Shown here in pieces: positions 1,801 to 12,245 of a stretch of 12,541 nt of DNA. Position 1 is the stretch's first letter; every line of letters starts with the position of its first letter. Both the position numbers and the translations under genes were made by a program. This DNA comes from Candidatus Zixiibacteriota bacterium (lineage in GTDB: Bacteria; Zixibacteria; MSB-5A5; SM23-73-2): positions 1 through 12,541 of the forward strand of contig JAUWYR010000054.1 of NCBI GenBank assembly GCA_030615745.1, written 5' to 3'. Under the pieces are notes generated by a model that worked only from the letters and a program-made list of their open reading frames with translations, made no database searches and was not told where the DNA came from.

Positions 1801-1887
1801 TTGGAGTATGCGAAGTCTCTTGACCTTCGGCATCTTAACGATAAACCTTTAGGTTTATATAAAAAATTTTTACAAGTAAAGCTAAAA
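1801..1887 (+). repeat. Structured intergenic element, copy 1
   Basis: It shares TTGGAGTATGCGAAG at the start and ACGATAAACCTTNAGGTTT further on with copy 2 at 9475-9572. Three pairings are visible. ATGCGAAG (1808-1815) pairs with CTTCGGCAT (1825-1833) with one bulged G. Hairpin A is ATAAACCT (1841-1848) with AGGTTTAT (1851-1858). Hairpin B is TTTAGGTTTA (1848-1857) with TAAAGCTAAA (1877-1886) with one G-G mismatch. A and B share the AGGTTT strand, so they exclude each other, like an attenuator or switch. The element begins at the predicted transcription start of the ABC ATPase leader. Its function is unknown; it could equally be a mobile palindromic repeat. Confidence 0.6.
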
Positions 1888-1919
1888 TGTATTATCAACC
1901 TATATCGGTAACACCCTTT

Positions 1920-1964
1920 GGCATGTCATCTTATCCTGCCAAAGGCGGGAGAGGTAGACATGCC
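1920..1964. other. Two-tier stem-loop in the ABC ATPase leader
   Basis: GGCATGTC (1920-1927) is the exact reverse complement of GACATGCC (1957-1964). Inside, CCTGCC (1935-1940) pairs with GGCGGG (1944-1949) across an AAA loop, with one T-G pair. It lies in the 335-nt gap before the ABC ATPase gene. Similar GC-rich palindromes are common dispersed repeats in genomes of this kind. Confidence 0.55.
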
Positions 1965-1989
1965 ACGGGATAATAAAACCATAGTCGAA

Positions 1990-2062
1990 CAGCCGCGTAG
2001 CGGAGGGTTTATCCCTCCGCACAGAGCCATAAAGGCTCCCTGGCCGGGCAGGCTGCTACGCG
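1990..2062. other. Cloverleaf-like GC-rich structured element (not a tRNA)
   Basis: An outer stem CGCGTAGC (1994-2001) with GCTACGCG (2055-2062) encloses three hairpins: CGGAGGG/CCCTCCG with loop TTTAT (2001-2019), GAGCC/GGCTC with loop ATAAA (2024-2038) and CCTG/CAGG with loop GCCGGG (2039-2052). One base (C2001) is shared by the outer stem and the first hairpin. An alternative CAGCC (1990-1994)/GGCTG (2051-2055) pairing exists. There is no T-loop sequence, no CCA and no standard arm lengths, so it is not a tRNA. The GC-rich composition contrasts with the AT-rich surroundings. It may be part of a regulatory leader or an inserted repeat. A weak open frame of 67 codons spans it (1918-2121), but its sequence just mirrors the hairpins and I do not call it a gene. 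Confidence 0.5.
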
Positions 2063-2134
2063 TGCTTCGGACATTCATACGAATCTTTTGCAGAAACACT
2101 TTTCTTAGCTATCGAGTGTAATTAAGGATTAAAG

Positions 2135-3226
2135 ATGGCAGAGATAATTTTAAGAAACATCTCGAAGATATTCGGAAAAGATAATCAGGTTTTAGATAAT
2201 ATCAATTTAGAGATAAAAGACCAGGAGCTTTTCACCATTGTTGGTCCTTCAGGATGTGGGAAATCTACACTTTTGAACCTTATTGCTGGATTGGAGGATT
2301 TAAGTTCAGGAGAGATATTTTTCGACAAGGTAAAAGTCGATCATCTTCCACCAGCTAAAAGGGATGTGGCTATGGTCTTTCAGTCCTATGCTTTATATCC
2401 TCATAAAGACGTCTTTGAGAATATAGCCTTCCCTTTAAGAATAAAAAAGCTTCCTAAAGATAAAATAAAAAGTAAAGTCCAAAAAGTAGCCAAAATGCTT
2501 GAGATAGAAGACTTTCTACAAAGAAAACCAAAAGAGTTATCCGGAGGTCAACGTCAGAGGGTTGCCCTGGGACGAGCAATAGTGAGAAAACCTAAGGTAT
2601 TCCTTCTGGATGAGCCTCTGTCCAATCTCGATGCTAAACTAAGAGTCTCCATGAGGGCTGAATTGAAAAAACTTCATTCTGAGATCAAAACAACCATGGT
2701 CTACGTTACCCATGACCAGGCTGAGGCTATGTCACTTTCAGAAAGGGTTGCAATTCTGTGCGACGAAAAAATACAGCAATGTGATAAACCTGAGGTTATC
2801 TATAATTATCCCAAAAACAAAATAGTCGCTGAATTCATCGGCAGTCCCCAGATGAACTTTTTTGAAGGAGAGATAGTTGAAAAAGATGATGAGCTTTTTG
2901 TCCAATTTAATCCTTTTGATTTCTTTTCCCTTCAAAAAAAAGGATTTAACTATTTAATAAAAGAAATATTTTTCGGCATCAGACCAGAGGATGTGATCTT
3001 AAGTCAGAAAGAAGAGAAAAGATTTTTCAAAGGAAAGATATTTGCAATTGAACCTTTAGGTGATAGAACCTATGTGGATATTTTGTGGGAGGGTAAAAGG
3101 GTAAAAGCTCAAACCACATCCGATTTTTGGGGAAAAACCGAGGAGTTTTTCTATTTTTCATTTGAGCCTCAAAAGATTCATCTTTTTGATAAAAAGACTG
3201 GTGATTCTTTAAGAGAGAATCTCTAA
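2135..3226 (+). CDS. ABC transporter ATP-binding protein, MalK/UgpC/MsmK type
   Basis: This 363-residue protein is the ATPase of a carbohydrate- or glycerol-phosphate-type importer. All nucleotide-binding motifs are intact: Walker A GPSGCGKST (37-45), Q-loop VFQSYALYPH (Q83), signature LSGGQRQRVALGRA (135-148), Walker B VFLLDEP (155-161), D-loop SNLDAKLR (163-170) and the switch His in VTHDQAEA (H193). The C-terminal 130 residues, starting near EFIGSPQMNFFEG (233-245), form the TOBE/OB region of the MalK branch. AAGGA (2124-2128) lies 6 nt before ATG 2135 and fixes the start. No permease or solute-binding gene is next to it, so it is probably a shared ATPase serving transporters encoded elsewhere, as MsmK does in streptococci. 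The substrate cannot be assigned. A long structured leader precedes the gene, and a terminator-like hairpin lies about 100 nt after it. Confidence 0.9.
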   Translation: MAEIILRNISKIFGKDNQVLDNINLEIKDQELFTIVGPSGCGKSTLLNLIAGLEDLSSGEIFFDKVKVDHLPPAKRDVAMVFQSYALYPHKDVFENIAFPLRIKKLPKDKIKSKVQKVAKMLEIEDFLQRKPKELSGGQRQRVALGRAIVRKPKVFLLDEPLSNLDAKLRVSMRAELKKLHSEIKTTMVYVTHDQAEAMSLSERVAILCDEKIQQCDKPEVIYNYPKNKIVAEFIGSPQMNFFEGEIVEKDDELFVQFNPFDFFSLQKKGFNYLIKEIFFGIRPEDVILSQKEEKRFFKGKIFAIEPLGDRTYVDILWEGKRVKAQTTSDFWGKTEEFFYFSFEPQKIHLFDKKTGDSLRENL

Positions 3227-3304
3227 CTTCTAAGTTAAAAGAACCATCATGTCTTGAAAAGCTTATCTTTTTTACTTTACCCTAAATGTAAAAGCAAATC
3301 TTTG

Positions 3305-3392
3305 TGAATCAGGTAGTTGGTAGCCCACCTTGCCTCAAGGTGGGGTTTTCTTTTGCCCAGGTTGGAGGTAACCACCGGAATTACCTGATTCA
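3305..3392 (+). repeat. Terminator-like repeat copy 1 enclosed in a 14-bp inverted repeat
   Basis: TGAATCAGGTAGTT (3305-3318) pairs with AATTACCTGATTCA (3379-3392), 14 pairs including one G-T. Inside, CCCACCTTG (3324-3332) pairs perfectly with CAAGGTGGG (3336-3344) across a CCT loop and is followed by GTTTTCTTTT, the form of a rho-independent terminator for the upstream ABC ATPase gene. A smaller hairpin GGTT/AACC with loop GGAGGT sits at 3360-3373. The AGTTGGTAGCCC...CTCAAGGTGGG core recurs at 4125-4155. Whether the outer stem is regulatory or marks an inserted element is not clear. Confidence 0.6.
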
Positions 3393-3420
3393 GATGTGAC
3401 TTTCTTGACAGGTAACATAT

Positions 3421-3452
3421 TTGAAACTTTGACCGGGTCCTATCCGTATAAT
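3421..3452 (+). promoter_or_regulatory. Promoter of the 44-residue membrane peptide
   Basis: A perfect -10 TATAAT lies at 3447-3452. The best -35 candidates are imperfect: TTGAAA at 3421-3426 has a long 20-nt spacer, and a TTGACC at 3429 is too close. A start near 3459 would give a leader of about 27 nt containing the ribosome binding site at 3473-3480. Confidence 0.5.
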
Positions 3453-3485
3453 CCAATAAGTCAAACTAAAGTAAGGAAGGATATT

Positions 3486-3620
3486 ATGGAAAAACAGACT
3501 GGCTTTCTGGGAATCTCAAGCTCGGCCTGGGTTGTGATTGGCATAGTGACAGCAGTGTTGGCCGGTGCGATTGTAATCTGGGCCCTATTGTTTTTGGCGT
3601 TTGGGCTAACCATAGGTTAA
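3486..3620 (+). CDS. Small hydrophobic membrane peptide (44 aa), unknown function
   Basis: I do not recognise this gene. It begins MEKQTGFLGISSSAW and then has about 30 uninterrupted hydrophobic residues (15-44), enough for one long membrane helix or a tight pair. AAGGAAGG at 3473-3480 ends 5 nt before ATG 3486, so this start is better than the in-frame ATG at 3396, which lies between the repeat and the promoter. A perfect TATAAT lies just upstream and a strong terminator at 3828-3853, so it has its own transcription unit. Its codons look richer in G and C than the neighbouring genes, which hints at foreign origin. A +1 shift at the stop codon would join it to a second hydrophobic frame ending at 3753. 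It could be a small toxin-like membrane peptide, a holin-like remnant or the start of a frameshifted two-helix protein; nothing decides between these. Confidence 0.55.
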   Translation: MEKQTGFLGISSSAWVVIGIVTAVLAGAIVIWALLFLAFGLTIG

Positions 3621-3753
3621 GTACTTAGTTCGTGATATTGTTGAGAGACCACTGATTTTTAACAACACCGGAACCAGGTTCATTCTGATTGCGATTGCGT
3701 GGAGCATAGCTATAATTGTTGCTGAATTGGCTGGGCCCTCTAGTTCGAGATAA
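3619..3753 (+). pseudogene. Start-less second hydrophobic frame, possible +1 continuation of the 44-aa peptide
   Basis: Immediately after the TAA of the small peptide, the +1 frame reads KYLVRDIVERPLIF, then NNTGTR, then an 18-residue hydrophobic stretch FILIAIAWSIAIIVAELA, ending at TAA 3751-3753. It has no ATG, GTG or TTG start and no ribosome binding site of its own. Skipping one T at GGT-TAA-G would fuse it to the upstream peptide into a protein of about 89 residues. This could be a mutated gene, an assembly error or a programmed frameshift; the first two are more likely. Confidence 0.35.
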
Positions 3754-3827
3754 TGAGCTATCTCAGGACTAACTTAAGAAGTGGTACAATAACCGGGGGC
3801 ACATCAGTTATTATATTAGCGTGTAGA

Positions 3828-3853
3828 GGAGGTCAAAAGACCTCCATTTTTTT
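3828..3853 (+). terminator. Strong rho-independent terminator
   Basis: GGAGGTC (3828-3834) and GACCTCC (3839-3845) form a perfect 7-bp stem with an AAAA loop, followed by A and seven T residues. It closes the transcription unit that starts near 3459. Confidence 0.8.
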
Positions 3854-3888
3854 GGAAGGCTGAAGTTTCAAGACCTTGACGGCCTTCC
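3854..3888. other. Two-tier hairpin after the terminator
   Basis: GGAAGGC (3854-3860) pairs with GCCTTCC (3882-3888), and inside it TCAAG pairs with CTTGA across two bases. There is no T-tract, so it is not a second plus-strand terminator. Nothing recognisable lies between it and the hairpin cluster at 4018; that stretch is non-coding. Confidence 0.45.
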
Positions 3889-4017
3889 TCTACATCTTTT
3901 TTGTTTATCCATTAAATGGTGAAGTCAAAAGTTTCCTCCTGACTTAAGGCTTCTTTTGGGAGGTAACTTTCGACAGCACTGTTCAACGAATTGAGCGGAT
4001 TTAACGGATGGATTTGT

Positions 4018-4100
4018 AGGCACGGATTTTATCCGTGCCTGGTACTGTTCGGGTTCCCTGACCCGAACGGGGGTTCCGCCAGGTCTGGGGACCTGCCGGA
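4018..4100. repeat. Cluster of three strong hairpins
   Basis: Three consecutive perfect or near-perfect hairpins are visible: AGGCACGGAT/ATCCGTGCCT with loop TTT (4018-4040), GTTCGGGT/ACCCGAAC with a 6-nt loop (4047-4068), and TCCG-C-CAGGTC/GACCTG-C-CGGA with loop TGGG and one C-C mismatch (4075-4100). The cluster is GC-rich in an AT-rich context and lies about 210 nt upstream of pdxA. Frames on both strands are open here, but they only mirror the palindromes. I read this as a composite of dispersed palindromic repeats; a structured RNA is possible. Confidence 0.5.
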
Positions 4101-4124
4101 CACAATGGGAGTAGTTTCTTACCC

Positions 4125-4165
4125 AGTTGGTAGCCCCATCTTGTCTCAAGGTGGGTTTCTCTTTT
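4125..4165 (+). repeat. Terminator-like repeat copy 2
   Basis: AGTTGGTAGCCC, then CCCATCTTG (4135-4143) pairing with CAAGGTGGG (4147-4155) across a TCT loop, then TTTCTCTTTT. It matches copy 1 at 3315-3354. One stem C has become T, which still pairs as T-G, so the hairpin is kept despite the sequence change. The outer 14-bp stem of copy 1 is absent here. Confidence 0.55.
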
Positions 4166-4166
4166 C

Positions 4167-4197
4167 CTCCTCTAATGAGGGGAATTTTAATTATTTT
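4167..4197 (+). terminator. Possible terminator upstream of pdxA
   Basis: CTCCTC (4167-4172) pairs with GAGGGG (4177-4182), one T-G pair, loop TAAT, followed by AATTTTAATTATTTTT. No obvious gene ends here, so it may only insulate pdxA. From 4198 to 4308 there is AT-rich sequence with a run of ten T residues (4250-4259) and no convincing promoter. Confidence 0.35.
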
Positions 4198-4308
4198 TGC
4201 TGAGATCACCTAGCTTTCTATTTCTTTACTTTCCCCTTGCGATTTCTTATTTTTTTTTTAAGTTATGAAAAAATGCAAAAATAAATTTTTTCGCTCCAGA
4301 AAATAACT

Positions 4309-5340
4309 ATGAGAAGAAAACTTATAATAGGCATAACAATGGGAGATCCAGCTGGAGTCGGTCCTGAGGTTGTGGCTAAGGGGATTTCAAACAAAAAGAT
4401 TAGATCAGTCTGTATTCCCGTTATCTTCGGCTCTTATGAGGTTATAAGAAGAGCTGCGAAAAGATATGTTAAAAATGCCAAGGTTGAAAAAGTCTCCTCT
4501 TTTGAAAATTTTGCGAAGCATTCTTCGAAAAAGACCTCTTCTGAGTTAATAAATGTTTATCCCTGCACAAACATAGATTATAAAAAGATAAAAGTTGGAA
4601 AACTAAATTATACCTCAGCAAAGATGGCAGTTGATTCTTTAATTTGCGCCACAAAAATGGCATTGTCAAAAAAAATCGATGCTTTAGTTACCGCTCCACT
4701 GACCAAAAAGGGACTTTTTTTAGCTGGTTATAAATTCAAAGGTCACACTGAGTTTCTGGCTAAACTTTCCCACACCAAAAATTACGCTATGATGTTTGTA
4801 AGCCCTGATTTAAAAGTTGCTTTGGTCACCACCCATCTGCCGATTTCAGAGGTGTCAAGAGCTTTAACTCCTAAAAAAGTAAGGGAGAAAATAGAGCTAA
4901 CAAACCAGATGCTCAAAAAAGCATTTAGAATAAGAAATCCTAAGATAGCTGTCTGTGGTTTAAATCCTCATGCAGGTGAGGAGACACTCTTAGGAGAGGA
5001 GGATAGAAAAATCATTTTGCCCGCAATAAGAAAAGCCCAGAGGAAGGGATTGAAGGTATTTGGTCCTTTTCCAGCTGATTCAGTATTTTCACTTGATGTT
5101 TCATCCAATTTCGATTGTATAGTGGCGATGTATCACGATCAGGGGATAATTCCTTTGAAAACGAAAGGTATAGGAAATGCTGTGAACTTAACCTGGGGTT
5201 TGCCTTTTATTCGCACCTCACCTGACCATGGAACAGCATTTAATATTGCTGGAAAGGGGAAGGCTAATCCAACGGGGATTATAAATGCGGTCCTTTTAGC
5301 ATCCAAGCTTACAAGAGAAAAATTAAAAATTAAAAATTAA
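4309..5340 (+). CDS. pdxA: 4-hydroxythreonine-4-phosphate dehydrogenase PdxA
   Basis: PdxA oxidises 4-phosphohydroxy-L-threonine with NAD to an amino-ketone that PdxJ then condenses with deoxyxylulose phosphate to give pyridoxine phosphate; it is a cytoplasmic, metal-dependent dimer. The 343-residue length is normal. Visible signatures are GITMGDPAGVGPE (8-20), TAPLTKKG (128-135), FKGHTEFLAKL (143-153), GLNPHAGE (217-224), GPFPADSVF (252-260), AMYHDQGIIPLK (273-284) and SPDHGTAFNIAGKG (304-317). The three metal-ligand histidines correspond to H176, H221 and H276. No good Shine-Dalgarno sequence precedes ATG 4309, but the conserved ITMGDP motif sits at its usual distance from this Met. The gene ends 1 nt before holB and its last codons lie in a heptamer repeat. 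Close packing with holB suggests co-transcription rather than a functional link. Confidence 0.95.
   Translation: MRRKLIIGITMGDPAGVGPEVVAKGISNKKIRSVCIPVIFGSYEVIRRAAKRYVKNAKVEKVSSFENFAKHSSKKTSSELINVYPCTNIDYKKIKVGKLNYTSAKMAVDSLICATKMALSKKIDALVTAPLTKKGLFLAGYKFKGHTEFLAKLSHTKNYAMMFVSPDLKVALVTTHLPISEVSRALTPKKVREKIELTNQMLKKAFRIRNPKIAVCGLNPHAGEETLLGEEDRKIILPAIRKAQRKGLKVFGPFPADSVFSLDVSSNFDCIVAMYHDQGIIPLKTKGIGNAVNLTWGLPFIRTSPDHGTAFNIAGKGKANPTGIINAVLLASKLTREKLKIKN
5318..5338. repeat. Triple AAAAATT heptamer tract across the pdxA 3' end
   Basis: Three exact tandem copies of AAAAATT (5318-5324, 5325-5331, 5332-5338) run into the pdxA stop codon and end 3 nt before the holB ATG. The unit is not a multiple of three, so slippage would change the PdxA tail and the stop-start spacing. 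Confidence 0.8.
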
Positions 5341-5341
5341 A

Positions 5342-6469
5342 ATGATTGATTTTGAAAATATTGTTGATCAGGAGCTTGTTAAAAAAATACTTTCCGGAGC
5401 GTTAAAAAAAGATAAGTTAGCTCACGCTTATCTGTTTTATGGAGAACAGGGAGTTGGAAAATGGGCTATGGGTCTGGAGCTTGCTAAGGCGGTCAACTGT
5501 GAGAATAAAAAAATTATACCATGCCAGAAGTGTAACATTTGTAAAAAAATCTCCAGGCTAATCCATCCAGATGTGAGATTGATATTTCCTCTGCCACCTT
5601 TAGAAGGTAAAAGCGAGAGTCAAAAAGAGGCTGAAAAACAAAAATTGATCCGAAATTTAAAAGAGATAAAAACATCTGATACTTATGCAACTCTTAGATT
5701 CTTTAAAAAAACCACAATCTCTGTGGATGAGATACGGGAGATGAAAAATCATCTTAATCTCAAGCCCAATGAGGGTAAAAAAAAGGTTGTGATAATAAAG
5801 GATATTGAAAATCTATCTTATTCTGGTGCTAACTCCATGCTTAAAGTCTTGGAGGAGCCTCCAGGTGATTCCCTTTTAATTTTAACTACCAAAAGTGTTG
5901 ACCGACTTCTTCTCACCATAGTATCGAGATGTCAGCTTTTAAAATTCAGCTTAATTCCAAAAGACTTTATCAAAGGTGAGTTGGAAAAAAGGTTAAAACT
6001 TTCCTCAAAGAAAGCCTCATTTATTGCGAATATATCTAAAGGAAGTCTGGGAAAAGCAATATATTTAGCTCAGAAGGAGGGTCCACTTGCACAAAAAAAA
6101 GCAAAAGATTTTTTAAAACTCTGTTTTGAAAATGACTTCTCCGAAACCATAGATTTCGTTGAGAAGGTTTCAAAGGAATATACAAGGGAGGAGGTTTTAG
6201 AATTAATTGATGGTTGTATCTTAGTTTTCAAAGACCTATCGTCAATATCCTTCGGATGTTTTTTCTCGGAGGCAGAAAAAAAAGAAAAGTTAAAAGATAA
6301 AGATTTAGAATTGCTTAGAACTTTTTTTAAATCATTTTCGCAAATCGTTATCGGAATAAGGGAGGCAGAGAAGACAAAGAGGGCTATTGAGCAAAATGTG
6401 GGTGTTGATCTTGCTTTATTGGCATTTTTAATTAAATTAAAAGATAAAAAAGAATTGATGGTAAAATAG
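5342..6469 (+). CDS. holB: DNA polymerase III clamp-loader subunit delta prime
   Basis: This AAA+ family protein of 375 residues would be part of the clamp loader that places the sliding clamp on primed DNA. LAHAYLFYGEQGVGK (26-40) contains the P-loop, but the residue after the Lys is Trp instead of Ser/Thr, consistent with delta prime subunits that do not hydrolyse ATP. C53, C61, C64 and C67 form the zinc-binding module of the family. ANSMLKVLEEPP (163-174) is the conserved segment of clamp-loader subunits, and TIVSRCQLLKF (192-202) carries the SRC motif whose Arg acts as the arginine finger. The remainder is the helical collar domain. The start codon is 1 nt after the pdxA stop, with an A-rich leader and no Shine-Dalgarno, so translation probably depends on coupling. 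The PSP1 gene starts 2 nt downstream. Confidence 0.9.
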   Translation: MIDFENIVDQELVKKILSGALKKDKLAHAYLFYGEQGVGKWAMGLELAKAVNCENKKIIPCQKCNICKKISRLIHPDVRLIFPLPPLEGKSESQKEAEKQKLIRNLKEIKTSDTYATLRFFKKTTISVDEIREMKNHLNLKPNEGKKKVVIIKDIENLSYSGANSMLKVLEEPPGDSLLILTTKSVDRLLLTIVSRCQLLKFSLIPKDFIKGELEKRLKLSSKKASFIANISKGSLGKAIYLAQKEGPLAQKKAKDFLKLCFENDFSETIDFVEKVSKEYTREEVLELIDGCILVFKDLSSISFGCFFSEAEKKEKLKDKDLELLRTFFKSFSQIVIGIREAEKTKRAIEQNVGVDLALLAFLIKLKDKKELMVK

Positions 6470-6471
6470 TT

Positions 6472-7281
6472 ATGCCAGATCTATATTTAGTTGAATTCAA
6501 AGGAGCAAGAAAGGGATATTATTTGAATCCTAAAGGTCTTCTAATCCAGAAATTTGATTTTGTAGTTGTGCAGGCAGAAAAAGGGGAGGACCTTGGAAGG
6601 GTGAAGTTTTGTGTAGAAAAAGATGACCTTTCTTTTTTAGGTGATAAGCGTTTGTCTATTTTAAGAAAGGTGACTAATAAAGACTTAGAAAAACTCTCTG
6701 CTAATCAAAAGAGGGAAAAAGAGGCTTTGAAGGAGTGTAAAAGGATGGTTATGGAGAGGAATATGGAGATGAAGCTTGTCGATTGTGAATTCCAGTTCGA
6801 TTGTAATAAGGTTACCTTCTATTTCACCGCTGATAAAAGAATAGATTTTCGTGAGTTGGTTAAGGAGTTAGCTTCTTTGTACAAGACAAGGATCGAGTTA
6901 CGTCAGATAGGGGTGAGGGATGAAGCTAAAAGGATGGGAGGGTATGGACCTTGTGGGCTTCCACTTTGCTGTGCCAACATTCTTAAGGATTTCGAGCCTA
7001 TCTCCACTCAACTGGTAAAGGAACAAAATCTAACTTTGAGCCCAACCAAGATATCGGGTAATTGCGGAAGGCTTTTGTGTTGCCTGCTTTTTGAAAAAGA
7101 TTTTTACGACAAGACTCTTCCCTTATATCCTAAATTAGGCTCTAAGTTTCTAACAGAGAAAGGCGAAGGAATTGTTGAAAAAATTAATCTCTTCAAGGAA
7201 TATATTGTGATAAAATACGAGGATGGCGAGGAAGAAAAGGTCACTTTATCCGAGATAAAAAAAAGGAAAAAAAAGAATTAA
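6472..7281 (+). CDS. PSP1 domain protein, RicT/YaaT-like
   Basis: The 269-residue protein has the PSP1 C-terminal domain over about residues 60-165 (for example RIDFRELVKELASLYKTRIE, then LRQIGVRDEAKRMGGYG). Two cysteine clusters follow: CGLPLCC (161-167) and CGRLLCC (198-204). In Bacillus subtilis the homologue RicT (YaaT) belongs to the RicA-RicF-RicT complex, which binds Fe-S clusters and is needed for RNase Y-dependent RNA maturation and for development. The cysteine pattern supports iron-sulfur binding here. RicA and RicF partners are not in the window. The Lys-rich tail (KKRKKKN) is unremarkable. The gene begins 2 nt after holB, matching the holB-yaaT neighbourhood of Firmicutes. I leave the symbol blank because the Ric complex is not established outside that group. 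Confidence 0.88.
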   Translation: MPDLYLVEFKGARKGYYLNPKGLLIQKFDFVVVQAEKGEDLGRVKFCVEKDDLSFLGDKRLSILRKVTNKDLEKLSANQKREKEALKECKRMVMERNMEMKLVDCEFQFDCNKVTFYFTADKRIDFRELVKELASLYKTRIELRQIGVRDEAKRMGGYGPCGLPLCCANILKDFEPISTQLVKEQNLTLSPTKISGNCGRLLCCLLFEKDFYDKTLPLYPKLGSKFLTEKGEGIVEKINLFKEYIVIKYEDGEEEKVTLSEIKKRKKKN

Positions 7282-7344
7282 GGCTATCCCATAGCTTAAA
7301 AAAAGCCCGGACCAAAACTTAAGGAGACTAAGATGATATGCTTT

Positions 7345-7418
7345 GAGATTGCTTCACTTCGTTCGCAATGACAGATGTTTCCTCTGTCATTGCGAGGGCA
7401 GAAGCCCCGAAGCAATCT
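7345..7418. repeat. Widespread palindromic repeat (TCATTGCGA type)
   Basis: AGATTGCTTC (7346-7355) pairs with GAAGCAATCT (7409-7418), and TCGCAATGACAGA (7363-7375) pairs perfectly with TCTGTCATTGCGA (7383-7395). The 3' arm carries a small extra GGGC/GCCC hairpin. This is the palindrome behind the spurious peptide VIANEVKQS that is often annotated in unrelated bacterial genomes; the minus strand here reads exactly that. It lies in the 281-nt gap between the PSP1 gene and metG. Confidence 0.8.
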
Positions 7419-7430
7419 TTTCGCTCTTTG

Positions 7431-7484
7431 GGGATGTTATTATCACCAACCCATCCTTCCCTTGCGGGGAATGAAAAACATCCC
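7431..7484. other. Inverted repeat with inner hairpin upstream of metG
   Basis: GGGATGTT (7431-7438) pairs with AACATCCC (7477-7484). Inside, TTCCC pairs with GGGAA. It directly follows the TCATTGCGA palindrome and may be part of the same insertion. No promoter or T-box motif could be recognised before metG. Confidence 0.45.
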
Positions 7485-7552
7485 TTTTGAGCAGAGAGAT
7501 AAAAAAGGATTGAAATTAAAAAGTAACCTGAAAAAAAAATGAAAACAAACTT

Positions 7553-7565
7553 GGGAGGTAACTTG
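7553..7565 (+). promoter_or_regulatory. Ribosome binding site that favours a TTG start for metG
   Basis: GGGAGGT (7553-7559) is a strong Shine-Dalgarno sequence inside the longest metG frame, 4 nt (from GGAGG) before TTG 7563-7565. The upstream ATG at 7539 is preceded only by a run of A residues. The TTG start is therefore preferred and shortens the protein by eight residues. Confidence 0.65.
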
Positions 7566-9464
7566 AAAAATTCAAAGAGGTTTTTTTTCACCACTCCTAT
7601 ATATTACGTTAACGACAGACCCCATATCGGTCAAGCCTATACAACGATCGCCACAGATGTTTTAGTTCGCTTCAAAAAATTAGCCAATAAAAAGACTTTC
7701 TTTTTAACCGGGACTGATGAACATGGAAGCAAAGTCTACAAGTCAGCTCAAAATGCTAAGCTGGACCCCCAGAAGTTCTGTGATATAATCAGTAGCTTTT
7801 TCAAAGATCTGTGGAAAAATTTAAAGATCGAATACGATTATTTTGTCAGGACAACAGATAAAAGACATGAAAAAGCAGTCCAGGATTTTTTAGAAAAACT
7901 TTATAATTCCAGGACAGAAAAAGGTGAACCTGTGATCTATAAGGGAGAATATAAGGGTCTTTATTGTGTTGGTTGCGAGAAATTCATAACAGAGAAGGAA
8001 CTGGTAGGTGGGCTTTGCCCTGACCATCAGAGAAAACCTGAGCTTTTATCTGAGAAAAACTATTTTTTCAGGCTCTCAGCTTACCTTCCCCAGGTGAAGG
8101 AATTGATCCTAAAAGATGAAATAAGAATACTTCCAGAGGAGAGGAAAAAAGAGGTTTTAGGACTGTTCAAGCAAAAATTAGAGGATTTCTCCATCTCAAG
8201 AGAAAGGGTGAAGTGGGGAATAACTCTTCCTTTTGACAGAAGTCAAAAAGCATATGTTTGGGTGGATGCCCTGCAGAACTACATCACCGCAATTGGATAT
8301 GGTGATGACAAAAAGCAATTCAATTTCTGGTGGAATGAAGGGGAAATAGCTCACTTAATTGGAAAAGACATATTAAAATTCCATTGTATTTTTTGGCCAG
8401 CGATGCTTTTAGCCGGTGGGGAAAAGCCACCTGATACGATCTTTGTACATGGGTTTTTCACCGTGAACGGGCAGAAGATGAGCAAATCCTTGGGAAATGT
8501 AATAGATCCGAATTATCTTCAAAAAAAATATGGCTCAGATGGTGTGCGCTATCTTCTGTTAACCCAGTTCCCATTTGGGCAGGATGGGGATATTCAGGAG
8601 AAAAGATTTATAGAGAAATACAACTCTGACCTTGCAAATGATTTTGGAAATTTGGTTAGCAGAATTTTGAAGATGGTATCCGATTTTTACAAAGGAAAAA
8701 TCCCAGAGCCAAAATCCTACGGAAGTTTAGAAAAATCGTTAATTGACCACACAGAAAATACAAAAAAAGATGTTTTTGAGGATATTGAGAATTTCAGAAT
8801 AGATTCAGCAACAGAAAAGATTTTAAAGTTGGTAAGAAAAACAAATAAGTATATTGAAGAGTCAGCACCCTGGAATTTAGCTAAAAAGAATGAGTTGGAT
8901 AAATTGAGCACTGTTCTTTATACCGGGTGCGAATGTTTGAGAATACTCTCTTTTCTTTTCTACCCCTTTTTACCTTCCAAATGCAAAAGGATAAGGGAGC
9001 TTTTAGGATTTGGCTCTGATGAGCTCGAACCTGTAAAAGAATATGATAAAAGCTGGGGTGTTTTGACACCCGGGACAAAGGTTTTAAAGCCTGAATCTTT
9101 ATTCCCAAGGATTTCCAAGGAGAAAGTGATGGAGAAAAAAAATGAGATAACTTTTGATGAGTTTTCAAAGCTTGATTTAAGGGTTGCTGAGATAAAAGAA
9201 GCTGAAAAGGTTTCAGGAACAAATAAGCTTTTGAAGCTAAAGATTAATATAGGTGATGAGGAGAGGACAATTGTGGCTGGAATTGCCCAGTATTATTCAC
9301 CAGAGGAGCTTTTAGGCAAAAAGATTGCAGTTGTTATCAATTTAGCTCCTGCTAAGATAAAAGGAATCGAGTCAAAGGGAATGCTTTTAGCAGCAGAGGA
9401 TGAGAAGAATCTGGGTTTGTTGATATTGGATAAGGATATGAAGCCGGGGACTAAGATACATTAG
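7563..9464 (+). CDS. metG: Methionyl-tRNA synthetase with C-terminal tRNA-binding domain
   Basis: This class I synthetase charges tRNA-Met with methionine in the cytoplasm. From TTG 7563 it has 633 residues; ATG 7539 would give 641. Using the 641 numbering, the catalytic HIGH motif is PHIGQAY (28-34) after FTTPIYYVNDR, and KMSKS is GQKMSKSLGN (311-320). The connective insertion has CVGC (143-146) and CPDH (160-163), a single zinc knuckle of the type seen in Thermus MetRS. IEESAPWNLAKK belongs to the anticodon-binding helical domain. Residues from about 534 (ITFDEFSKLDLRVAEI ...) form the Arc1p/Trbp111-like OB-fold tRNA-binding domain, with SKGMLLAA near the C-terminus. It follows the PSP1 gene after a 281-nt repeat-bearing gap, so co-transcription with holB-PSP1 is possible but not shown. 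Copy 2 of the structured element starts 10 nt after its stop. Confidence 0.95.
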   Translation: MKNSKRFFFTTPIYYVNDRPHIGQAYTTIATDVLVRFKKLANKKTFFLTGTDEHGSKVYKSAQNAKLDPQKFCDIISSFFKDLWKNLKIEYDYFVRTTDKRHEKAVQDFLEKLYNSRTEKGEPVIYKGEYKGLYCVGCEKFITEKELVGGLCPDHQRKPELLSEKNYFFRLSAYLPQVKELILKDEIRILPEERKKEVLGLFKQKLEDFSISRERVKWGITLPFDRSQKAYVWVDALQNYITAIGYGDDKKQFNFWWNEGEIAHLIGKDILKFHCIFWPAMLLAGGEKPPDTIFVHGFFTVNGQKMSKSLGNVIDPNYLQKKYGSDGVRYLLLTQFPFGQDGDIQEKRFIEKYNSDLANDFGNLVSRILKMVSDFYKGKIPEPKSYGSLEKSLIDHTENTKKDVFEDIENFRIDSATEKILKLVRKTNKYIEESAPWNLAKKNELDKLSTVLYTGCECLRILSFLFYPFLPSKCKRIRELLGFGSDELEPVKEYDKSWGVLTPGTKVLKPESLFPRISKEKVMEKKNEITFDEFSKLDLRVAEIKEAEKVSGTNKLLKLKINIGDEERTIVAGIAQYYSPEELLGKKIAVVINLAPAKIKGIESKGMLLAAEDEKNLGLLILDKDMKPGTKIH

Positions 9465-9474
9465 ATGAAAAATT

Positions 9475-9572
9475 TTGGAGTATGCGAAGCTCGAAGAGTC
9501 TTGACGACATCTCCGTATGGATCAAGAGATTGACGATAAACCTTCAGGTTTGTCAATTTGACAAAGCTGAAG
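9475..9572 (+). repeat. Structured intergenic element, copy 2
   Basis: It begins TTGGAGTATGCGAAG like copy 1 and shares ACGATAAACCTTNAGGTTT. Hairpin A is TTGAC-GAT-AAACCT (9530-9543) with AGGTTTGTCAA (9546-9556), the GAT being bulged. Hairpin B is CTTCAGGTTTGTC (9542-9554) with GACAAAGCTGAAG (9560-9572), 12 pairs with one G-G mismatch in the same place as in copy 1. A and B compete for the same bases. An additional 5' pairing GGAG-T-ATG (9477-9484) with CATCTCC (9508-9514) is possible. It sits between metG and a methyltransferase gene. An open frame over it (9482-9742) mirrors the hairpins and looks non-coding. Confidence 0.6.
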
Positions 9573-9580
9573 TCGTAGAT

Positions 9581-9599
9581 CCCCCGCATTTTGCGGGGG
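9581..9599. other. Very stable GC hairpin after element copy 2
   Basis: CCCCCGCA (9581-9588) pairs perfectly with TGCGGGGG (9592-9599) across TTT. The next bases are GGCTTTACAC, without a real T-tract, so intrinsic termination is uncertain. It may be the final stem of the upstream element or the terminator of metG. Confidence 0.5.
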
Positions 9600-9607
9600 G
9601 CTTTACA

Positions 9608-9643
9608 CTCCAAATAGCTCTGGAGTTAAAGCCTTTAGGTTTA
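9608..9643. repeat. Short hairpin repeats related to the structured element
   Basis: ACTCCA (near 9608) pairs with TGGAGT (near 9621), and ACTCCAAA is also the reverse complement of the TTTGGAGT that opens copy 2 at 9474. CCTTTAGGTTTA (9632-9643) is a third occurrence of the 12-mer found in copy 1. The rest of the gap up to 9728 shows nothing further except the ribosome binding site at 9716-9721. Confidence 0.45.
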
Positions 9644-9728
9644 CTTTTTATGAATGGAATTGATTCCGGTGGACATTTCGGAGATAAGAAGTTATGCAAA
9701 ATTGGCTTGATGCCCAGGAGGAAGAAAG

Positions 9729-11396: not shown

Positions 11397-11852
11397 ATGA
11401 GCAATGAAATTAAGGAAAGACATCATCACTCGAATTTTGCTTTCTGGATAATATCTGTGATGCATGACAATCCACTTCTCCCGATTTTTAGAAATCCTTA
11501 CAAGCTACTGGAAGCAGCCGGCCTCAAACCGGGTCAAAAAGTACTGGAGGTTGGATGTGGTCCAGGATTTTTTACAATTCCTGCGGCAAAAATAGTGGGA
11601 AAGGAAGGCACAATTTACGCTGTGGATGTGCATCCGCTTGCGATAAAAAAAGTTCAAAAGAAGGTTGAAAAAGAGGGAATAAAAAATGTGACTCCTATCC
11701 TTGCAAATGCATCTAATACCGGACTACCAGATCGAAGTGTTGACCTTGCCTTCCTTTTTGGTCTTTTTTGCTCTTTCAAGGCGGCAACACGGGTTCAAAT
11801 CCCGTTAGGGGCAGCAAAATATGGAGAAAGTGGAAAAGTTATGAGCATATAA
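11397..11852 (+). pseudogene. Truncated class I methyltransferase (C-terminus lost)
   Basis: Residues 1-123 look like a normal SAM-dependent methyltransferase: an N-terminal HDNPLLPIFRNPYKLLEAAGL (23-43), motif I KVLEVGCGPGFFTIPAA (48-64), the strand-2 acidic residue in YAVDVHPLA (74-82), then LANASNTGLPDRSVDLAFLFGL (102-123). After L123 the expected remainder, including the 'R-V-L-K-P-G-G' strand, is missing. The frame instead runs through the 3' half of a tRNA-Glu gene and stops at 11852, adding about 28 unrelated residues. GAGG at 11385-11388 lies 8 nt before ATG 11397, so it could still be translated, but the protein lacks half of the fold's second part and is probably inactive. The break falls near 11766-11773. 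Confidence 0.8.
11773..11813 (+). other. 3' half of a tRNA-Glu(UUC) gene, remnant or attachment-site copy
   Basis: Reading from the anticodon loop: CTTTCAA (11773-11779, anticodon TTC), the 3' anticodon strand GGCGG (11780-11784), a CAAC variable loop, a T-arm ACGGG/CCCGT closing TTCAAAT (11789-11805), the acceptor strand TAGGGGC (11806-11812) and discriminator A. No CCA follows (GCA instead). The matching 5' half (acceptor GCCCCTA, D-arm) is absent upstream; that sequence is methyltransferase coding. Such 3' tRNA fragments are the usual footprint of integrases that use tRNA genes as attachment sites. Confidence 0.8.
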
Positions 11853-12067
11853 ATTTTCACCTTTTTTCGCCTCAGGAATTTGTTACTCCTTTCAGTGTAA
11901 TAGAACTTGTCTTCTATATGACAGTAATCACGCAAAATACGGGATTCAAATTCTATAGAATCTCTCCTGCTCTTTTGGAGGTATATGCGAAGCATTCATA
12001 CGAATATCCAGATCAAACATTCCCAATCGCGAAAGTCCCCAAAAAAGTGCTTGACAAGATTGCATAA
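11816..12067 (+). pseudogene. Unidentified C-terminal coding fragment
   Basis: Directly after the tRNA fragment, one frame reads KIWRKWKSYEHINFHLFSPQ and continues for 83 codons to TAA 12065-12067, ending VPKKVLDKIA. Composition and hydrophobic pattern look like real protein sequence, but there is no start codon or ribosome binding site at its beginning; the nearest upstream ATG (11768) lies before the tRNA segment. It is therefore probably the 3' part of a gene whose start was lost at the junction. It does not resemble the missing half of the methyltransferase. I do not recognise the family. Confidence 0.5.
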
Positions 12068-12136
12068 ATGATTATAATTAATTATATAAATAGAAGGGAT
12101 TTCTCCGGAAAACGGGCTACAAGACACCATTCATTT

Positions 12137-12159
12137 GTCAGGAGCGCAGGGAACCTGAC
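12137..12159. other. Short hairpin in the gap before the cold-shock gene
   Basis: GTCAGG (12137-12142) pairs with CCTGAC (12154-12159). It is another GC-rich palindrome in AT-rich surroundings and probably a dispersed repeat. The gap from 12068 to 12245 otherwise shows only AT-rich sequence. Confidence 0.4.
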
Positions 12160-12245
12160 CTACGAAGCTAGCGAGCTATTTATAAAAAAATGGATTAATT
12201 GGTCACCTTAATACACTTCTAATTATTTAAAAATTTAAATATAGC

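Follow-up and report, generated by a model that had tools for sequence, protein, structure and literature searches.

GGAG-footed REPINs in a Zixibacteria genome and the RAYT branch by which they are apparently moved

The elements described here are most similar to the REPIN/REP-BIME elements and RAYT (TnpAREP) transposases of E. coli, Pseudomonas fluorescens SBW25, and Stenotrophomonas (PMC3116915, PMC2817692, PMC8266576), with which they have in common short intergenic palindromes, a tetranucleotide foot, inverted doublets, a single-stranded hairpin spanning the whole REPIN, a bracketed RAYT gene, and no target duplication signal. Published canonical REPs have a GTAG or GTGG foot, and in E. 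coli TnpAREP the GTAG is reportedly contacted by residues W94, Q95, E100, H101, and R104 (PMC6006769). The family analyzed here differs from these systems in that its foot is GGAG rather than GTAG/GTGG, its pairs are C-type/G-type heterodimers, its long variants carry nested extra stem-loops, and the cognate RAYT is absent from the genome to which our sequence belongs. It also resembles the CGTC-tagged REPs and the TIRYT/TIRtron elements of Di Nocera et al. 2013 (PMC3733652), which are non-GTAG palindromes, some of them dimers, with some repeats bracketing tyrosine transposase genes (the CGTC-tagged REPs have no transposase association, and the TIR motif is GGGGWSAS). The transposase clade discussed below, in turn, is similar to TnpAY1 subclass 2.6, found mostly in Bacteroidetes, and class 3, with a CnGA foot, both being HuH Y1 enzymes with non-GT[AG]G flanking structures that are copied elsewhere (PMC6006769). 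Because these other non-GTAG classes (CGTC, CnGA, and the TIR motif GGGGWSAS) have been published, we consider the GGAG foot to be a variant and not a new kind of element. GGAG is absent from the texts of the REP papers searched, among them Di Nocera et al. 2013 (PMC3733652) and PMC6006769, with our comparison to the TnpAY1 subclasses being one by description, and none of them describes REPs with a GGAG tag alongside a RAYT clade of their own (subscription papers, figures, and supplements may do so).

The window is a stretch of 12,541 nucleotides, contig JAUWYR010000054.1 of a Candidatus Zixiibacteriota bacterium, whose genome assembly (2.28 Mb, 98.6% complete) we refer to as G000. Two sequences in this window are very probably REPINs, that is, non-autonomous mobile elements of two inverted REP units each, moved in the manner of a RAYT system as set out below. 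The relevant features are as follows:

1766–1794, + strand: sigma-70-type promoter, TTGACA-17 nt-TATTAT, read from the sequence
1801–1898, + strand: REPIN copy 1, with a long-form left REP at 1801–1859, comprising the GGAG foot TTGGAGT, an extra hairpin TGCGAAG..CTTCGGCA, and then hairpin A at 1841–1858
~1876–1898: decayed right REP of copy 1, reading GTAAAGCTAAA..
2135–3226, + strand: ABC transporter ATPase gene (ORF, downstream of copy 1, context only)
7539–9464, + strand: methionyl-tRNA synthetase-like gene (ORF, context only)
9475–9613, + strand: REPIN copy 2, full length, with a long-form left REP (hairpin A at ~9537–9555), a gap of 2–3 nt, and a right REP at 9559–9613 that has a GC-rich stem-loop, CCCCCGCATTTTGCGGGGGG, inserted and ends in CACTCCAA
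9620–9645, + strand: lone degenerate REP, CTGGAGTTAAAGCCTTTAGGTTTAC, a covariance-model match of 16.6 bits

Both copies had been described in a first-pass annotation made from the sequence alone, and their shared blocks and two alternative pairings are found as claimed there. The extents need correction, in that copy 2 does not end at position 9572 and continues to 9613, and the decayed partner in copy 1 had been overlooked. A third fragment placed at 9632 is real, and forms part of the whole degenerate unit at 9620–9645. Copy 1 is identified by a covariance-model match to hairpin A, together with the sequence and the DNA fold, and copy 2 by a covariance-model match to its right REP on the − strand and by the DNA fold of the whole element (z = −6.1), with its 3′ end, ...GGCTTTACACTCCAA, being the inverted partner of TTGGAGT. 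Rfam has no match in the window above the gathering score. Copy 2 begins 10 nt past the stop codon of the methionyl-tRNA synthetase-like gene. Judging from the promoter sequence, copy 1 would start at about the expected transcription start of the ABC ATPase gene, and is probably transcribed within the leader of this gene, where any effect it has would be a by-product of insertion. The sister species in the same genus, candidate division Zixibacteria bacterium SM23_73_2 (G001), has a similar promoter (TTGACT-18 nt-TATTAC) at the corresponding place on its contig C63.

The window also contains other repeats. At 12135–12161, there is a GTAG-type REP (GTCAGGAGCGCAGGGAACCTGACCTAC) that resembles those beside L039, a RAYT gene of the same genome, and further dispersed repeats lie at 1995–2062, 3324–3354/4135–4165, 3813–3899, 7333–7418, and 12030–12104, each of which is multiply matched in G001; the intergenic space of G000 is built largely from differing palindromic repeats. 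We note, separately, that a methyltransferase-like gene at 11397–11852 looks broken or fused: the similarity of this ORF to G001 (C48:33061–33431) ends at 11765, just past which there is a string that looks like a 3′ tRNA half (GGGTTCAAATCCC...CAGC); ARAGORN detects no whole tRNA.

The repeated unit consists of TTGGAGTG and a hairpin, so that a GGAG(TG) foot leads into a stem of 7 bp capped by a TTYA loop, and a REPIN is formed by two such units facing each other as an inverted pair of small palindromes. When the copies are read side by side, the left unit of the full element is TTGGAG-TGTAAACC-TTTA-GGTTTAC, and the right unit is the reverse complement of TTGGAG-TGTAAAGC-TTYA-GCTTTAC, with a spacer of ~1–80 nt between them; in the long forms within the window, the left unit is enlarged by extra stem-loops, as is the right unit of copy 2. 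We tested for the canonical GT[AG]G foot, which is absent, with GGAG in its place, and we therefore file the element as a variant rather than as a canonical GTAG REP. C-type/G-type heterodimers make up 25 of the 28 clean REPINs from several genomes, a pattern to be expected of pairs that move together, and a converging second REP lies within ~110 nt at 14 of the 24 loci that were fetched via one REP, with a directly repeated partner within this distance at none of them. The joining of a C-type to a G-type unit recalls E. coli REPINs, in which REP types are likewise mixed.

The annotation had further proposed selection on a folded strand, citing two compensated pairs in hairpin B (T1850–A1884 in copy 1 to C9545–G9569 in copy 2, and A1857–T1877 to G9552–C9562), both of which are present, and such selection is supported by the covariation of hairpin A. 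In 31 aligned half-elements, which were taken by their TGGAGT ends and are mostly of the short form, insertion-bearing long forms being excluded, all 7 stem pairs have changed on both sides, with 36 double-changed cells compared to 10.8 upon shuffling, and a covariation score of 0.512 compared to 0.161 upon shuffling and at most 0.114 when slid. Over all 48 halves, including the long forms, the pairing is 5.10 of 7 compared to 4.09 when shuffled (maximum 4.60). The 28 clean elements give 6.89 of 7 compared to 5.39 when shuffled, a value that is partly selected, as these elements were chosen with both REP hairpins at least 6/7 paired, such that the 31-half covariation and the 48-half pairing are the fairer tests.

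Rather than being limited to the two copies first described, the family has dozens more members. Their abundance far exceeds chance: the 15-mer TTGGAGTATGCGAAG occurs with up to one mismatch at 8 places in G000 and its reversed control at 1, and ACGATAAACCTTNAGGTTT with up to three mismatches occurs at 47 and its reversed control at 7. The unit covariance model, with the best 150 candidates per genome scored, finds at least 115 units in G000. Eight of 10 other genomes in the same order have 29–137 units, and the remaining two have 7 and 0; outside the order, 1 of 28 genomes in the same class has a match, which is marginal (E = 0.095). The elements are predominantly intergenic (21 of 23, while ORFs cover 78%). 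The covariance-model search that had been suggested for the genome and its relatives has returned many copies, and hairpin A covaries in the half-elements aligned, in support of the annotation’s alternative reading, a structured mobile repeat, for which the high copy number, the intergenic location, and the differing site occupancy in two species of the genus also speak. Specifically, the copy 1 locus is syntenic in G001, where 147 nt correspond to the 449 nt at 1683–2131 and the element is absent (the junction was read by eye from the two sequences). Comparison of contig C69 of G000 with G001 gives one site without the element and another at which the two copies of G000 are matched by a single decayed one, such that the element is absent from G001 at 2 of 3 sites and decayed at 1 of 3. 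This differing occupancy between sister species is indirect evidence, at the level of sequence comparison, that the family is mobile. Target-site duplications in 57 elements do not exceed chance, the distribution being that of shuffled flanks, which fits Y1 transposition, unlike a DDE MITE.

A candidate source of this mobility is found in related genomes, where L112, a 225-codon ORF in G001, and L116, a 183-codon ORF in genome G002, have TGGAGTG..CACTCCA elements on both sides, with the downstream element starting 1–2 nt past the stop codon. The unit model gives full-scoring matches on both sides of L112, and weak ones (10–12 bits) beside L116. The L112, L116, and L104 proteins score above the NCBIfam REP_Tyr_transpos cut-off, and the RAYT features found are the PF01797 fold and invariant HuH and Y---NP residues; no close relative of the G001 RAYT was found in viral contigs. 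This is, in its anatomy, a REPIN/RAYT system and behaves like one, and the family is apparently moved by the matching RAYT branch. By analogy to TnpAREP of E. coli and Stenotrophomonas, the Y1/HuH transposase would bind the hairpin in single-stranded DNA, read the 5′ GGAG foot as its cleavage guide, and move both REPs together without duplicating the target. We note also three GGAG-clade RAYTs (L104 in G010, L105 in G009, and L097 in G005) with flanking hairpins that keep GGAG on unrelated stems (TGCGCAAGC, TGCACAAGC), suggesting a conserved foot and a drifting stem.

No RAYT of the GGAG clade was found in the 98.6% complete G000 assembly, and its copies are for this reason probably relics of, or dependent on, a RAYT that is lost or unassembled. 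G000 has three Y1 genes above the Pfam cut-off (L039–L041), which we rejected as the cognate enzymes, as their immediate flanks are other REPs, of the GTAG type for L039 and L041, and the GGAG element that lies near L039 does not adjoin the gene at both ends. L040, on contig C25, is a Y1 gene with WED..DR in its guide region, and is flanked by repeats of a further non-GTAG type (TTGCTGCATT..AATGCAGCAA and TTGTGCTGGATT..AATCCAGCAC).

The annotation had offered a switch as one reading of the mutually exclusive hairpins, and an RNA switch, in which hairpins A and B compete in a gene leader to control expression, would be in keeping with copy 1 lying directly after a promoter and ahead of the ABC ATPase gene, as well as with the greater stability of hairpin B in copy 2 alone (−10.6 kcal mol–1, compared to −4.5 kcal mol–1 for hairpin A, as DNA). 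Partner shuffling, however, rules out hairpin B as a conserved helix in both short and long forms: between the 3′ arm of the left unit and the 5′ arm of the right unit, the pairing is 5.21 of 7 in the 28 clean elements, compared to 5.46 after right halves are exchanged at random between elements, and 4.29 of 6 compared to 4.27 in 7 copies of the long form, with several copies breaking hairpin B. The further copies hence show no covariation of hairpin B within the element, an outcome that the annotation had itself named as contrary to its proposal. Nor do the copies have a common gene context: their neighbors and orientations vary, and one lies between convergent genes; moreover, the sister species has the promoter and the gene without copy 1. 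We thus regard a switch as highly improbable. In the REPIN reading, hairpin B is the REPIN-wide hairpin, arising because the two REPs are inverted repeats, in line with Bertels and Rainey, for whom the long hairpin is a property of inverted REP doublets (PMC3116915), and the G–G mismatch, which is indeed constant in both copies, arises because one unit has C–G where the other has G–C at the same stem position (25 of 28). This explains the apparent two-state switch as a by-product of inverted REP pairs. Least probable of all is that these are terminators or mRNA-stabilizing intergenic hairpins of chance resemblance: the elements do often come after stop codons, and REP elements get co-opted as terminators or mRNA stabilizers, but the U-run is absent, terminators feature neither inverted pairing nor a conserved GGAG foot that is single-stranded, and presence or absence varies by species.

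Two further possibilities concern the type of mobile element. A MITE of a DDE transposon, with TTGGAGTG..CACTCCAA as short terminal inverted repeats, would account for these repeats being perfect while the interior is variable; we nevertheless consider it very unlikely, given the lack of a target-site duplication signal, the covarying subterminal hairpin that each end has of its own, and the nature of the bracketed gene, which is a Y1 REP transposase. The REPIN reading also has to be weighed against elements of the TIRtron type, that is, long inverted repeats around TIRYT genes that are not REPs. There is a resemblance, in that a gene lies between inverted repeats with stems varying by species, and double-palindromic TIRs have been published (PMC3733652). 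The published TIR motif is, however, GGGGWSAS, most TIRYTs are in a subclass without REP-like hairpins, and each end is here a tetranucleotide at the foot of a perfect hairpin, making this assignment unlikely, if less so than the foregoing ones.

Homologs of the clade, gathered from 84,980 species genomes, gave 80 loci in Zixibacteria, Patescibacteria groups, Chloroflexi, WOR-3/Stahlbacteria, Planctomycetes, and others. We scanned every tetranucleotide 0–2 nt 5′ of a perfect hairpin near these genes, with no tag presupposed, and GGAG is the commonest of the 256 at the hairpin foot, being found at 43 of the 80 loci (27 on both sides), compared to 7 in the distal flanks; under this strict hairpin rule, a GGAG hairpin was not detected at 37 of the 80. 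Within the order, RAYTs of the W-Q....[D/E]-H..R type have GTAG in 19 of 28 cases and GGAG in 1 of 28, and all 6 of the W-[Y/W/H]..YWDxC type have GGAG, L116 carrying F instead of W. A tree of 128 RAYTs requires 2 changes of the tag, compared to ~17.6 with shuffled labels, and the 81-row clade has 41 GGAG-only and 0 GTAG-only members, the other RAYTs sampled having GTAG. As both tag and sequence are inherited, the association of tag and residues is essentially one phylogenetic contrast, and small p-values overstate independence.

Guide residues were mapped by alignment to E. coli TnpAREP (4ER8), the only solved relative found. At the guide positions, the clade keeps W, an acidic residue at 100, and usually R, whereas Q95 is mostly Y, W, H, or F, and H101 is replaced. 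As the loci were found partly by pattern through the guide motif, conservation of this motif is partly by construction, which is not the case for the tag. From these sequence comparisons, the guide may have been switched from GTAG to GGAG by W-[Y/W/H]...D-x-C..R replacing W-Q...[D/E]-H..R. On balance, we favor the broader proposal that GGAG-tagged REPs and REPINs across phyla have a distinct RAYT clade that serves them, and that the GTAG-reading residues Q95 and H101 changed in this clade, along with the deletion of one residue, in concert with the change of the guide from GTAG to GGAG.

If true, this would be a natural switch of guide specificity in a domesticated single-strand transposase. 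The choice of cut site through the foot tetranucleotide is partly known, based on few GTAG systems, and a clade whose foot differs, with correlated changes in the residues that bind it, offers a direct, testable contrast for guide recognition. With this family, REPIN populations are also documented for uncultured candidate phyla.
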